Shown: positions 1,978 through 9,355 of the stretch, piece after piece | Position numbering within the stretch: position 1 is the stretch's first letter | How the letters are laid out: each line of letters opens with the position of its first letter | NCBI GenBank assembly: GCA_021202525.1 | Contig: JAJQCV010000126.1 | Span: 1 to 47,941, forward strand | Length of the DNA: 47,941 nt | Direction: 5' to 3' | Source: Akkermansiaceae bacterium | GTDB lineage: Bacteria > Verrucomicrobiota > Verrucomicrobiia > Verrucomicrobiales > Akkermansiaceae | Translations under genes and position numbers: made by a program | Notes under the pieces: generated by a model | Seen by the model: only the letters and a program-made list of their open reading frames with translations | Databases searched by the model: none | What the model was told of the DNA's origin: nothing

Positions 1978-2018
1978 TTCATGTGAATAACATATCCATT
2001 CCATTTACTTTCAAACAA

Positions 2019-2085: not shown

Positions 2086-3186
2086 TCAGTTGGGAGATCT
2101 CATCGGCATGAGTACGTACAGGAACTCATCGCCAATCTTCAGCACGCCCGGGCTCATTTCATCAATGAGGTTCAGCGTAATCATCGTGTCGCCGGGCATG
2201 GTTTTCAGGGGAGCCATGAAGAAGTCCGGATTGAAGGAGATGGAAAGAGGCCTGCCGGAATAAGTGATGGTCACGGACTCGTGCGCCTCACCTACGCCTT
2301 CCGCGCTGGATGCCACTTCCAGCTCGTTTTCCCGGAAGTTCAGCTTGATGTTCGTGCTCTTGTCCACGGAAAGGAGGGAGACGCGGCGCACGGTTTCCAG
2401 CAATTCTCCGCAGGGGAGTTCGATGCTTTCCTTGCAGTCCGTCGGAATCACCTGGCGGTAATTCGGGTAATTGCCGTCAATCAGCTTGCTGATCAGCAGC
2501 GTATCGTTGATTTCAAAAGCCGCCTGGTTGCGGGTGAAACGGATCGTGACGGAACCCACTTCATCCAGCAGGCGCCGCAATTCTCCTACGGCCTTGGTAG
2601 GCAGAATGGCGTCCAGCTGTTGTTCCTCCGGGAAATCCAGAGCAGTTTCCGCCAGCGCCAGGCGGCGGCCGTCCGTAGCCACCAAGGTCATCTTCCCGTT
2701 GCGGAAGGAAAGGGAAATGCCGTTGAGCACGTAGCGGGTCGTATCCGTGGAGATGGCGTATTCCGTCCGGCGAATGCAGTCGCGCAGAAGGTTCTGCTCC
2801 ACCTGGTACACGGTCGCCTGTTCAAAGGAGGGAAGATCGGGAAATTCATCCGCCGGAAGACCGTTCAGCTTGAACTGGGAGCGGCCGCATTCCACAGTTG
2901 CCTGGTTACGCTGGTTCACATCTACCTGCACTTCCGCCTCGGGAAGTTCGCTGATAATGCTCACCAGCTTTTTGGCGGGGAGGGTAACCGTACCGTCCCT
3001 CACCACGTTGGCGGGCACCACGCCGGTGATGCAGACATCGAGGTCGGTTGCAGTAAAGCGCACTTGCCCGTTTTCGGCTTCAATCTTTACATTGGAAAGA
3101 ATGGGCAGCGTCGTTTTGGAAGACACCACACTGACTACCTGTCTCAGGCCATCCAGAAATACTTGCTTGGAAATAGTAAACTTCAT
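2086..3186 (-). CDS. dnaN: DNA polymerase III subunit beta (sliding clamp)
   Basis: A 366-residue protein of the normal length for the beta clamp, which forms a ring on DNA and tethers the replicative polymerase and repair proteins. The sequence opens with MKFTISKQVFLDGLRQV, has the typical KTTLPILSNVKIEA segment near residues 24-37, and ends with the family's characteristic tail (FLYVLMPMR). Three clamp domains of about 120 residues each fit the length. The ATG at 3186 gives the conserved N terminus directly. It is transcribed alone on the minus strand and ends at a strong terminator. dnaA and recF, often its neighbours, are absent, but DnaA boxes and parS-like sites lie nearby, so it may still be origin-proximal. 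Confidence 0.97.
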   Translation of the reverse strand: MKFTISKQVFLDGLRQVVSVVSSKTTLPILSNVKIEAENGQVRFTATDLDVCITGVVPANVVRDGTVTLPAKKLVSIISELPEAEVQVDVNQRNQATVECGRSQFKLNGLPADEFPDLPSFEQATVYQVEQNLLRDCIRRTEYAISTDTTRYVLNGISLSFRNGKMTLVATDGRRLALAETALDFPEEQQLDAILPTKAVGELRRLLDEVGSVTIRFTRNQAAFEINDTLLISKLIDGNYPNYRQVIPTDCKESIELPCGELLETVRRVSLLSVDKSTNIKLNFRENELEVASSAEGVGEAHESVTITYSGRPLSISFNPDFFMAPLKTMPGDTMITLNLIDEMSPGVLKIGDEFLYVLMPMRSPN

Positions 3187-3624: not shown

Positions 3625-4527
3625 CTACCGGAAAACTTCGCCGGGCATGGTCCATGTTCCGGGGGGAACCATCCGTCCCGGCAACACAACGGTATTGGCC
3701 CCGAACCGGACGTGATCTCCAACGACGGCTCCCAGCTTGCTCCTTCCCGTCTCCACCAGCCTTCCCCCCGCCATCATCCGGTGCTCCGCCCCGTCGTGCC
3801 TGAAATTGGAACAAACCGTTCCCGCGCCAAAATTGACACCGTTCCCAATGATGGAATCTCCGGCATAACTCAAATGGGAAATAAACGTTCCATCCCCCAC
3901 AATGCAATTCTTCAATTCAACGCCCTGCCCCGCAACGCACCCGTCTCCCAGGGAAACATATCCCCTCAAATAGCAATTCGGGCCTATCCTGCAACCATCT
4001 CCCACCCATACGTAGCCTTCCACCACCACGCCGGGCAGCACTATGGAATCCTTCCCAAGCCGCAAATTTCCCAGAACATGCACGCCATCCTTCCCGGAAC
4101 CGGTGTTCCCTTCCATTCCCTTCATGACTCTCTCCTGCCAGTCCAGCAGATCCCATGGGTATACAAAACGCTCCACAGCCATATCTCCCTTCACGAAACT
4201 CTGCCGTAATCCCGGAACCCCCTTCCCTGCCAAAAAACGGCCCTCCGCATTCCTCAGCTCGCATGCCCCCGGTCCGTAATCAGCCAGCCATACAGCGACC
4301 TCCGGAGAAAAATCGTGCATGGACACCTCCACAACTTCATCCCCGGCTCCCCGCCCTTCCTCTTCCGGCCCAAAAACGGCTTCAAAGCCCGCTTCCCGGA
4401 GCCGTGAGGCACAATACGCGCCTATGCTCGTCCCGGCCACGGAAAACGCGTGGAAGGGCCTTTCAGGACCCGTTGCCGGAAAAGTGAGATCCCTCTCCGG
4501 AATGTAAATCAATCTGGCAATCCTCAT
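3625..4527 (-). CDS. left-handed beta-helix (hexapeptide repeat) transferase-like protein
   Basis: A 300-residue protein. The second half, from about residue 150, is built of hexapeptide-type repeats (LRLGKDSIVLPGVVVEG, VWVGDGCRIGPNCYLRG, VSLGDGCVAGQGVELKN, then GNGVNFGAGTVCSN and VRFGANTVVLPGRMVPPG). This is the signature of left-handed parallel beta-helix acyltransferases and of the C-terminal half of GlmU or sugar-nucleotidyltransferase-like proteins. The N-terminal 140 residues lack an obvious nucleotidyltransferase G-rich loop, so the donor and acceptor cannot be named. The ATG at 4527 (MRIARLIYIPE) is chosen over an in-frame TTG at 4563. It faces away from the putative origin region and ribD. 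The fold is confident; the substrate is unknown. Confidence 0.75.
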   Translation of the reverse strand: MRIARLIYIPERDLTFPATGPERPFHAFSVAGTSIGAYCASRLREAGFEAVFGPEEEGRGAGDEVVEVSMHDFSPEVAVWLADYGPGACELRNAEGRFLAGKGVPGLRQSFVKGDMAVERFVYPWDLLDWQERVMKGMEGNTGSGKDGVHVLGNLRLGKDSIVLPGVVVEGYVWVGDGCRIGPNCYLRGYVSLGDGCVAGQGVELKNCIVGDGTFISHLSYAGDSIIGNGVNFGAGTVCSNFRHDGAEHRMMAGGRLVETGRSKLGAVVGDHVRFGANTVVLPGRMVPPGTWTMPGEVFR

Positions 4528-4847
4528 GCAGGAATGATATTCCCTGTTCCGTACTTCCTGCAAGAGACAATGCAGCCGGTGCCCGGAGAGACCGCTCTGT
4601 GCAATAACCGTGTGGAAGTAACGGTGAATACCCTGTGAATAACTTATTCAGACATTATTCACAATTTTGTTAACGGAATTTATTCACATCCGCAAGATCC
4701 TACAACACGTTTCTCTTAAATGTGAAACCAATGTTGTTCACAATCACTACAGGGTAGAAGAAGAAGGAATTTAATATTGTTAAATCTAATACTCTTCAAC
4801 ACACATCTCTATTGTCCTTTTTCCATGATCCATGATACAAGGTTCCC
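4528..4847. other. putative chromosomal replication origin (DnaA-box cluster)
   Basis: An AT-rich intergenic stretch between divergent genes. It contains three exact copies of the DnaA-box form TTATTCACA: 4634-4642 on the minus strand, and 4655-4663 and 4680-4688 on the plus strand. Near-matches are TTATTCAGA at 4644-4652, TGTGAAACC at 4721-4729 (minus) and TTGTTCACA at 4734-4742. An A/T-dominated segment at about 4769-4795 (TTTAATATTGTTAAATC) could be the unwinding element. dnaN is 1.4 kb and mnmG 1.5 kb away, and two parS-like sites flank the area at 1962 and 6566. dnaA is not in the window. The boxes are seen directly; origin function is inferred. Confidence 0.65.
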
Positions 4848-5903
4848 ATGAACGCAGAGGATTGGGATGCCCGCTGGATGAAACTGGCCATGGAACTTGC
4901 CGGAAAAGGGCTCGGTCTGACCAGCCCCAATCCCTGCGTGGGCGCCGTCATCGTTCACAAGGATCAGCTCATCGGCTCCGGATTTCATGAAAAGGCCGGT
5001 CTCCCCCATGCGGAGAGGAATGCCATTGCCGACGGTATTGCCAAAGGCAATGCCGGGCTGTTTCCGGATTCCACCCTTTACGTTACACTGGAACCGTGCA
5101 GCACGACGGGAAAAACCCCTCCCTGTACGGAAGCCATCATGGAACACCGCTTCAAGCGGGTGGTTTACGGCTCGGAAGACCCCAATCCACGCCACAGGGG
5201 AATCGCTGCGGAAATTTTAAGGAATGCAGGCATTGAAGTTGCCCGGGGGATTCTGGAGAAGGAATGCGACTTTCTAATCAGGACTTTCCGCCTGAACATG
5301 ATGGAAAGCCGTCCCTGGATAATCGCAAAAAGCGCCATGTCCCTGGACGGACGCATTTCCCGCAGTTCGGAACGGTCCCAATGGCTTACTGGAAAAGCCG
5401 CCCGTTCCTTCGTACATACGCTCCGTTCCGAATGCGATGCCATCATGACGGGAGGAAACACGGTACGCTTGGATAATCCGTCTTTGACAATCAGGAATCC
5501 GGAAAAGCCCGTTTCCCCCCTTAAGGAACAACCGTGGCGCATTATCCTGACCCGGAATGCCGCTTCCATCCCGGAAAATTCCATCTGCCTGACGGATGAA
5601 TTTCGTGACCATACCTTGATCGTAGAGAATGTATCCAATTATTTGGAATTGTTACAAAATTTGTATTCGGAAAGAAAAATAGGTACTATTCTTCTGGAAT
5701 CTGGAGGCATTCTGATGAAAGAATTCCTGAAAGCCGGACTGGTGGATGAATGGGTGGGATTTTATGCTCCCGTCATTACCGGCGGCGGTGCTGAAGGAGT
5801 GGAAGGAGGAGCATTCCTGGAACGGGAGGCGTATCTCTCTGAACCTTCTATAAGAATATTCGGCTCTGACGTGTGCATCCGGGGAGATGTTCATTATCAA
5901 TGA
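4848..5903 (+). CDS. ribD: bifunctional riboflavin biosynthesis deaminase/reductase RibD
   Basis: A 351-residue protein of normal RibD length. It catalyses two riboflavin steps: deamination of the diaminohydroxyphosphoribosylaminopyrimidine, then reduction of the ribosyl side chain. The N-terminal cytidine-deaminase-like domain shows the zinc-binding set: HAE at residues 54-56 and two cysteines in PCSTTGKTPPC (C84, C93). The C-terminal reductase domain begins near residue 155 (RPWIIAKSAMSLDGRIS) and carries a GGGAEGVEGG loop near the end. The ATG at 4848 gives the usual start a few residues before MKLAMELA. No other rib genes are adjacent; it lies beside the DnaA-box region. Confidence 0.95.
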   Translation: MNAEDWDARWMKLAMELAGKGLGLTSPNPCVGAVIVHKDQLIGSGFHEKAGLPHAERNAIADGIAKGNAGLFPDSTLYVTLEPCSTTGKTPPCTEAIMEHRFKRVVYGSEDPNPRHRGIAAEILRNAGIEVARGILEKECDFLIRTFRLNMMESRPWIIAKSAMSLDGRISRSSERSQWLTGKAARSFVHTLRSECDAIMTGGNTVRLDNPSLTIRNPEKPVSPLKEQPWRIILTRNAASIPENSICLTDEFRDHTLIVENVSNYLELLQNLYSERKIGTILLESGGILMKEFLKAGLVDEWVGFYAPVITGGGAEGVEGGAFLEREAYLSEPSIRIFGSDVCIRGDVHYQ

Positions 5904-6300: not shown

Positions 6301-8178
6301 TTATTGCCTGTTCCGTTTTTGCAGGTAGACGAGCAGGAGCGCCATGTCCGCCGGAGTAATGCCGGGAATGCGGGAAGCCTGTCCTATAGTGGCGGGGCGG
6401 ATCTTGCCCAGCTTGATAACGGCTTCCTTTTTTAAAGCATGGACGGATTCGTAATCAATATCGTCCGGGATGATTTTTTCCTCCATTCGCACGATTTTTT
6501 CCGCCTGTTTTTTTTGCCTTTCAATGTGGCCCTCATACTGGATGTCCGTAGCTATGGCATCCCAATGTTCCACGTGGAACATTTTTTTCATCTCTTCCGG
6601 CAGCATGGACCAGTCGTTTCCGGGACGCTTGAGCCAGATGGAGACGGGAACGCCTTCATATTTCATCGCCGCCGCCTGCTTGATTCCCTCTTCAATGGAC
6701 TTCCGCCTGTTTTCCGTTTCCATGAACAGATCATGGGTGATAAGGCCGTTTTCAAACGCCAGCGGAGCCAGCCGCAGGTCTGCATTATCCTGCCGCAACA
6801 GAAGCCGGAATTCCGCGCGGCTGGTGAACATGCGGTATGGTTCGTCCGTTCCCTTGGTAACCAGGTCATCAATCATGACGCCTATGTAAGCCTGGTCCCT
6901 CCGGAGAATCAGCGGGGGCTTTCCAAGAACTTTCAGAGCGGCGTTCGTTCCTGCCATCAGGCCCTGTGCGGCGGCTTCCTCATATCCGGAAGTCCCATTG
7001 ATCTGTCCGGCAAAATACAGGTTCTCCACAAGCTTGGTTTCCAGGGTGGAATGAAGTTGGGTGGGTGGGCAGAAGTCGTATTCCACTGCATACCCCGGGC
7101 GTATCAACTGGGCATTTTCCAAACCGGGAATAGTGCGGATAAATTCGCATTGAGCGGAGTAGGGCAGGGAGGTGGACACGCCGTTGAGGTAAAATTCCTC
7201 CGTGCTGCGCCCTTCCGGTTCCAGAAAAACCTGATGGCTCGTTTTTTCTGCAAACCGCACGATTTTGTCTTCAATGGAAGGGCAGTAGCGGGGTCCTATC
7301 CCTTCAATGATGCCGCTGTACAGGGGGCTGAATTTCAGATTGTCCCGGATGATGTCATGCGTGGTCTGGTTGGTGTACGTAATCCAGCAGGGCATTTGTT
7401 CCATCCGGAAATCTTCGTCCCCCCACGTGTTCAGTGTACAATAGGGTTCGGAAGAACGCTTCAGGAGGTTCCGTGAACGGTAGCTGAACAGGGCAGGGGG
7501 AGTGTCCCCCGGCTGGAGTTCGCAGACGGAAAAATCAATGGACCTGCCGTTGATGCGGGGAGAAGTACCCGTTTTCAGCCGTTCCACCTGAAAGCCCAAA
7601 TCCGCCAGGTCGGAGGAAAGCGTGGATGGCGCACAGCCCATGCGGCCGCCAGTGACATGTTGCAGTCCTACATGCAGCAGGCCTTTCATGAAAGTGCCGG
7701 AACAGATGACTACGCTGCGTGCATGAATGGTGTAATCCAGGGAAGTGACGGCGCCCGCGGCCTGCTGTTCTCCGTTGACCAGCAGCTTGACGACGTCTTC
7801 CTGGAACAGTCGTACGCCGGGAGCGGTTTCCAGCACTCTTTTCATGCGCGTGCGGTAGGCGGTCTTGTCGCATTGGGCGCGCGGTGCGCGGACGCTGGGG
7901 CCCTTGGAAGCGTTCAGCATCCGGAATTGAATGGCGGTGGCATCCGTATTCAGACCCATGGCGCCGCCCAGAGCATCTATTTCCCGTACAATATGCCCCT
8001 TGGCAAGGCCGCCGATGGCCGGGTTGCAGGACATTTGGCCGATGGTGTCCAGATTGTGGGTAAGAACGGCTACGGAACAGCCCATGCGGGAAGCGGCCAA
8101 AGCCGCTTCAATGCCCGCGTGTCCTGCGCCGACGACGAGAACGTCGAACACGGAAGATGCTTGGGTGGAGGAATTCAT
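6301..8178 (-). CDS. mnmG: tRNA uridine-5-carboxymethylaminomethyl modification enzyme MnmG (GidA)
   Basis: A 625-residue FAD protein that, with MnmE, installs the 5-carboxymethylaminomethyl group on U34 of certain tRNAs. The N terminus has the dinucleotide-binding GAGHAG motif (residues 18-23). It is followed by the family hallmarks [35 protein letters not shown] and, mid-protein, [20 protein letters not shown]. The start is ATG at 8178, which overlaps the stop of holA in a TGATG arrangement and implies translational coupling; an upstream TTG at 8193 is less likely. The codons for FHVEH near the C-terminal third contain a perfect parS-like palindrome. mnmG is often found near replication origins. 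Confidence 0.97.
6566..6581. other. perfect parS palindrome inside mnmG
   Basis: TGTTCCACGTGGAACA is a perfect 16-base palindrome matching the parS class bound by chromosomal ParB proteins. It lies within the mnmG coding sequence and is read as the peptide MFHVEH. The same palindrome with one change occurs at 1962-1977. Motif seen directly; binding inferred. Confidence 0.8.
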
Positions 8179-9284
8179 CAGGATGCTGAACAAATGGCAA
8201 GGCGGTGCAGAACCAGCCGCGGATCAAGAGAAGAAGAAACCAGGGCCTTGTCGGCCTTCATGCACTCCTTCAGGGTCTGTTTCAGTCGCTCCGTCTTGAA
8301 TTTGGCGGCATTTTGGGCCGCCAGGAAAAGCGGGTAGGCATTCGGGGTGCCGTCCTTCTTCAAGGGAATCAGCGCGGATGCATAAGATGGCAGGGAGGAA
8401 ATTCTGGCGGTGAAATCCTTGAAATTGGTGGGCTTCAAATTGAAGGCATCACACAAAAGTTTGGCGGCCAGCAAATTTCTAAGCGTCGGAATAAATGCGG
8501 CACGCATAATGGTGACGGCATTTTCTCCGCGTTCCAGTTGAAAATCGATCAGGGAAATGGCCGTGTCGCTCTTCTTGTTTTCCAGCGCTCGTGAAATTTC
8601 GAAAATTACTCCCGTGCGGGTGAGTGGAACCATTCTTTCAACATCCTCCGGCATGACTGTCCGCCGTTCCGCTCCCAGGAAAAGATCCAGCTTTTCAATT
8701 TCGGAAATAATCTGGCGGGAAGACTCGCTGACGCGGTGGATGAACAATTCCAGCGCGGAAGGGTCAAAGGCCATCCCTCTTGCGGCCGCTTCCTTGTTTA
8801 CCAGGGGCATCAGGCTGCCTTCCCAGCCGGCCTTGGTAATATCCGGCTTGTTCAATTCTGCAGCAGCGGAATGCTGGAGCAGGAATTTATTGAAGGAACG
8901 GCGTTTGTCGAACTCGGAAGCGGAAACAACCAGAATGACGTCCGGACCCAGCCCGGCTTCCAGCAATTGCTTCAGGGAATCCAGGGCCGCTTCCGTGGTG
9001 GAGGACCTGCCGGTGACGGAATCCCCGAGGAAGTTGCAATTCTTCATCCAGACCACCTTGCGCCCGGGGAAAAAGGGCAGTGTGCGCAGGGCCTCCATGA
9101 CCTGGCGGACAATTTGAGATGCTTCATCGAAATCTCCGCAGCCCGCTTCCAGGATTTCATGGGAAAACTCGTTCGTTCCTTCCGTCAGGGCGGCAAAAAC
9201 GCCGGAAGCTTTTTCACGCACCATCCCTTCATCCGTGCCGAAAACGAGATGAATGGCCTGTTGTTCTGGAATGAAACTGCCCAT
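8178..9284 (-). CDS. holA: DNA polymerase III subunit delta
   Basis: A 368-residue protein matching the delta clamp-loader subunit, which opens the beta ring. The N-terminal part has the family features HLVFGTDEG (residues 12-20), [21 protein letters not shown] and [20 protein letters not shown] helical collar-like C-terminal region follows ([13 protein letters not shown] and on). The first in-frame ATG is at 9284 (MGSFIPEQQ); an upstream TTG at 9308 adds eight residues and is less likely. The stop overlaps the mnmG start by one base, so the two form an operon, with holA first. dnaN lies 5 kb away. Confidence 0.88.
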
Positions 9285-9355
9285 AAAGCGTGCCCGTTCA
9301 TACCACAAAATCCGGTTTTTTGAAAGACGTATTTGTCATTAGAAAGTTTTTTCAT

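Follow-up and report, generated by a model that had tools for sequence, protein, structure and literature searches.

The basal unwinding system of Bacillus subtilis combines DnaA-boxes 6 and 7 with DnaA-trios. In its general form, basal unwinding is defined by a DnaA box, an optional weak second box, a spacer of at most 16 bases and at least three trios of the form NAN, of which the commonest in first position is TAG (3'-GAT-5') (PMC8287927). Within the genus Akkermansia, a Hi-C study of strains from the OMM12 mouse consortium used skew, parS and read coverage to assign their origins, including that of A. muciniphila YL44. In its passages on origin placement, that study remarks that origins are not systematically found at dnaA, and the species covered by the remark are not specified there (PMC10197239). 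It was the only report returned when the published papers were searched for Akkermansia studies dealing with oriC or with peak-to-trough analysis. Elsewhere in the phylum, the oriC of Methylacidiphilum infernorum is located 250 nt upstream of dnaA, as set by GC skew (PMC2474590). In Escherichia coli, oriC sits between gidA (mnmG) and mioC (PMC10225481).

Here we analyse a 320-base intergenic gap (4528-4847) in a window of 47,941 nucleotides, by which we mean the whole stretch of DNA analysed. The window is the entire contig C131 of a 138-contig, 2.84-Mb draft genome. The gap is very probably the chromosomal oriC of a gut Akkermansia species, positioned far from dnaA. It shares with the B. subtilis system a DnaA box, an abutting weak box, a GC-rich spacer, a first trio TAG, repeated trios with a middle A, and AT-rich DNA thereafter (PMC8287927). 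It differs in that the Akkermansia module lies away from dnaA, has TTGTTCACA as its anchor box and is predicted from sequence. The YL44 origin, as the Hi-C study presents it, belongs to the same genus and was placed by the same kind of evidence, a parS cluster and a skew switch; the present gap comes from a different species and is resolved to boxes, trios and an AT-rich stretch (PMC10197239). M. infernorum belongs to the same phylum, but its origin adjoins dnaA whereas the Akkermansia origin is far from it. The E. coli oriC is likewise near mnmG and away from dnaA, but has a different gene as its other neighbour and reflects an independent rearrangement. To our knowledge, E. coli has no ParABS system. 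Set beside this earlier work, the gap reads as a genuine DnaA-type origin that belongs to a known kind and occupies a position that is unusual but has been reported.

A DnaA-box cluster between an acetyltransferase-like gene and ribD

The gap is bordered on one side by a gene resembling hexapeptide-repeat sugar acetyltransferases (3625-4563, minus strand; its start may be the ATG at 4527) and on the other by ribD (4848-5903, plus strand; NCBIfam TIGR00326). Close by are dnaN, encoding the DNA polymerase III beta clamp (2086-3186, minus strand; TIGR00663), and mnmG, also called gidA (6301-8193, minus strand; TIGR00136). The NCBIfam models thereby bear out the initial annotation, which had named dnaN and mnmG near the gap and ribD beside it. 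It had also reported that dnaA is missing from the window, and the single dnaA match in the genome is indeed on contig C40. After mnmG comes holA, encoding the DNA polymerase III delta subunit (8178-9308, minus strand; TIGR01128), which with dnaN makes two replisome subunit genes within 5 kb of the predicted origin. In the complete congener G038, ribD (L095:9941-10992) is split over two frames by a frameshift or an assembly error; the origin gap of this genome is intact despite the split.

Three exact copies of the DnaA box TTATTCACA fall within 55 bases of the gap (4634-4688), as originally claimed. They are located at 4634-4642 (minus strand), 4655-4663 (plus strand; TTATCCACA in several relatives) and 4680-4688 (plus strand). 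Three near-matches had been claimed as well. Two of these are one-mismatch copies: TTATTCAGA at 4644-4652 (plus strand), which opposes box 4634 with one base between them, and TTGTTCACA at 4734-4742 (plus strand), the putative anchor box of the unwinding module, which reads TTATTCACA in two relatives. A weaker third, ATCACTACA, carries four mismatches and suits the layout of the unwinding module. Outside the gap, a lone exact box is found at 1982-1990 (minus strand), four bases from the parS site on the dnaN side.

The whole window contains four exact boxes against a mean of 0.19 in first-order simulations, and none of 300 first-order simulations of the window's composition placed two exact boxes within 55 bases. 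Boxes with one mismatch are not enriched across the window (8 found, 6 expected). Genome-wide (2.84 Mb), 25 exact boxes are present compared with 6 matches to a reversed-pattern control, and at the genome's own box density one would expect only about 3e-6 exact triples of this span (55 bases) per genome. The gap therefore has one recognised attribute of an oriC, a cluster of DnaA boxes in intergenic DNA.

A predicted DnaA-trio module and AT-rich stretch

The gap also holds a complete DnaA-trio module, which the initial annotation overlooked. A putative weak second DnaA box, ATCACTACA (4743-4751, plus strand), abuts box 4734 in the layout described by PMC8287927; across nine species this weak box has 2 to 4 mismatches. 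It is separated from the trios by GGG (4752-4754, plus strand), a short GC-rich spacer that is three bases long and mostly GC in the nine species. The trios themselves, TAG AAG AAG AAG GAA (4755-4769, plus strand), form a candidate single-strand DnaA binding site. Box 4734 and the first trio are 21 bases apart, start to start, in all nine species, with 12 bases between them, so that box, spacing and trios agree with the published definition of basal unwinding. The strict trio module occurs once in the window and in none of 200 simulations.

The trios run into an AT-rich stretch of low duplex stability (4770-4800), a predicted unwinding element. AT content reaches 79% over positions 4767-4800, and duplex stability within the gap is lowest in the 50-base segment that begins at 4763. 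An unwinding-like AT-rich stretch had been noted at the outset and is confirmed by these values, though it is not unique in the window, where the 50-base segment ranks as the eighth least stable site.

Conservation of the elements among relatives

In a six-species alignment, the invariant columns are concentrated in the elements and not in the DNA around them. The five boxes have 40 of 45 columns invariant (9/9 for box 4634, 8/9 for box 4644), compared with 5 of 45 in the DNA between boxes 4680 and 4734 and 34 of 94 in the 5' flank. The trios are invariant in 14 of 15 columns and the AT-rich stretch in 29 of 31, giving 43 of 46 together. Nine congeners share almost the same arrangement of boxes in order, strand and spacing, with offsets from the trios constant to within one base. 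Box 4644 keeps its offset in eight of the nine, and the complete congener G028 has a two-mismatch copy, TTATTCGGA. The elements are thus conserved between related species, as those of an oriC should be.

Of 59 genomes assigned to the broad genus, 7 carry the trio and AT-rich sequence with at most two mismatches; G028 is absent from these solely through a one-base insertion in this sequence. The exact sequence is not kept outside close Akkermansia species. In three further genera of the family (g9, g12 and g14), box clusters are present upstream of ribD, some with AAG repeats beside a box. In G036, of genus g13, ribD has been relocated and a TTGTTCACA-trio site is found about 6 kb from parS, at a coarse skew switch. 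We regard these origin-like sites in the four genera as leads, not proofs.

GC skew and the distance to dnaA

Because the genome itself is a draft, GC skew was assessed by proxy in two complete congeners, G028 and G038, that carry the same gene block. For G028 (3.18 Mb) we sampled 40 stretches of 20 kb, which places a switch only to a 20-kb sample. All 16 samples between the first base and 1.22 Mb have negative skew. The value is approximately zero at 1.230-1.250 Mb, and beyond this point nearly every sample as far as 2.82 Mb is positive. The near-zero sample contains ribD, dnaN, the boxes and both parS sites. In G038, skew is negative to 0.944 Mb, approximately zero at 0.962-0.982 Mb, which is the homologous locus, positive from 1.01 to 2.26 Mb and negative at 2.50 Mb. 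In both genomes the reverse switch occurs almost opposite the locus (in G028, near 2.88 Mb against an antipode at 2.83 Mb). A skew minimum at the gap had been proposed as a check on the origin, and at 20-kb sampling the minus-to-plus switch falls in the sample holding the gap in both congeners. The local minimum itself is at 1238408 in G028 and 5589 in the window, 0.3-0.7 kb within ribD. Skew in G019, from another genus, is too noisy for origin placement. In G036 the switch can be placed roughly, at 0.27-0.40 Mb, near parS and mnmG at 0.41 Mb.

An oriC usually, though not necessarily, adjoins dnaA, and this one does not. The gene is at about 1.1 kb in the numbering of both complete congeners, about 1.24 Mb from the locus along a 1.59-Mb arm in G028 and 0.97 Mb along a 1.33-Mb arm in G038, or 73-78% of the path to the terminus. 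The suggestion that the origin is separated from dnaA agrees with these distances and with the location of dnaA on contig C40 in the draft. No exact box is present in the stretch of about 19-20 kb that surrounds dnaA in the draft genome or in G028. An origin beside dnaA was rejected: exact boxes are missing there and the gene is deep inside one skew arm.

parS sites flank the gap

The two parS-like sites reported earlier are real, and they are the sole matches in the genome when TGTTYCACGTGRAACA is searched with up to one mismatch. They lie one on either side of the gap: TGTTCCACGTAGAACA, asymmetric with one mismatch, at 1962-1977, and TGTTCCACGTGGAACA, within mnmG, at 6566-6581. The same block is flanked by parS in G028, G038, G047 and G055. 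Two or three parS sites are present in 12 of 13 relatives searched, and a single site in the other. The pairing of TGTTCCACGTAGAACA with the neighbouring exact box at 1982-1990 is kept in six species.

A main parB-like gene is present in the draft (C39:1438-1716) and in G028 (C1:2218657-2218935), so that 16-base palindromes of the TGTTYCACGTGRAACA type near the predicted origin coexist with a parB gene. The distance between this gene and the gap is large, about 0.98 Mb in G028 and 0.81 Mb in G038.

Alternative explanations

Clusters of DnaA boxes are known away from origins in bacteria. The gap might accordingly be a DnaA-titration site of the datA kind, or a DnaA-regulated promoter of ribD or the acetyltransferase gene, in which case replication would start at another locus such as dnaA. 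A second box array in the genome lends this some weight. It consists of four box-like nonamers, two exact and two with one mismatch, in one orientation and an 11-base register, before a small ORF (C117:51941-51993, L169:1442-1494). Nevertheless, it is the gap and not dnaA that coincides with the skew switch and the two parS sites, there is no exact box in the roughly 19 kb around dnaA, and a trio module follows the boxes in the gap, whereas the individual boxes of the C117 array are not conserved. We consider a titration or regulatory role in place of an origin very unlikely. The C117 array was rejected as an origin in its own right, being only partly kept in seven relatives and located at 3.07 Mb in G028, far from the minus-to-plus switch; it is possibly a DnaA-binding regulatory or titration site. 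In the same region, an ORF at L169:2414-2728 (minus strand) resembles the Cas2 CRISPR protein and is near a phage head-tail-like ORF, both judged by eye.

A narrower objection concerns only 4755-4800, which could be a promoter or leader of ribD instead of an unwinding element while the boxes still mark an origin. The segment is AT-rich and occupies the bases 48-93 before the ribD start, as a promoter or leader might. Its trios, however, stand at the constant spacing from the box pair demanded by the published module, and the stretch is intact in G038 even though ribD is split there; the objection is improbable, if less so than a titration site. Least credible by far is a chance cluster of AT-rich nonamers. 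The window-wide count at one mismatch would fit such an accident, but the genome as a whole is enriched in exact boxes, a triple would not be expected, and the layout kept by nine species refutes it.

A model for initiation, and implications

The reading of the gap as an origin, first put forward as a candidate, draws support from the skew of the congeners, the uniqueness of the parS sites, the conserved box layout and the predicted trio module. By analogy with B. subtilis-type origins, DnaA would bind both the box cluster (4634-4688) and the box pair (4734-4751), and from that pair a filament would grow along one strand of the trios (4755-4769). The AT-rich stretch (4770-4800) would then melt and the replicative helicase would load, allowing two forks to depart in opposite directions. 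ParB would bind the flanking parS sites, which would serve to separate the new origins.

It is likely that dnaA and the main parB gene have gone from the origin in Akkermansia, leaving dnaA towards the terminus on one arm. Its copy number would then stay low during fast growth, when the origin is present in more copies. This separation of dnaA from the origin may be old, since the coarse switch of G036, in another genus of the family, is near mnmG and parS and about 0.65 Mb from dnaA.

A position away from dnaA has already been reported; what is new here is the element-level map of the origin and its conservation. Akkermansia is a much studied gut bacterium, and the numbering of G028 and G038 starts at dnaA, whereas the likely origin is about 1 Mb away. 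The gap should therefore replace dnaA as the reference point when growth rates are estimated from read coverage, when plasmids are designed and in other origin-based work. For the Verrucomicrobiota, the locus offers a defined candidate DnaA-trio module that is open to testing, and a probable example of an initiator gene at a great distance from the origin.
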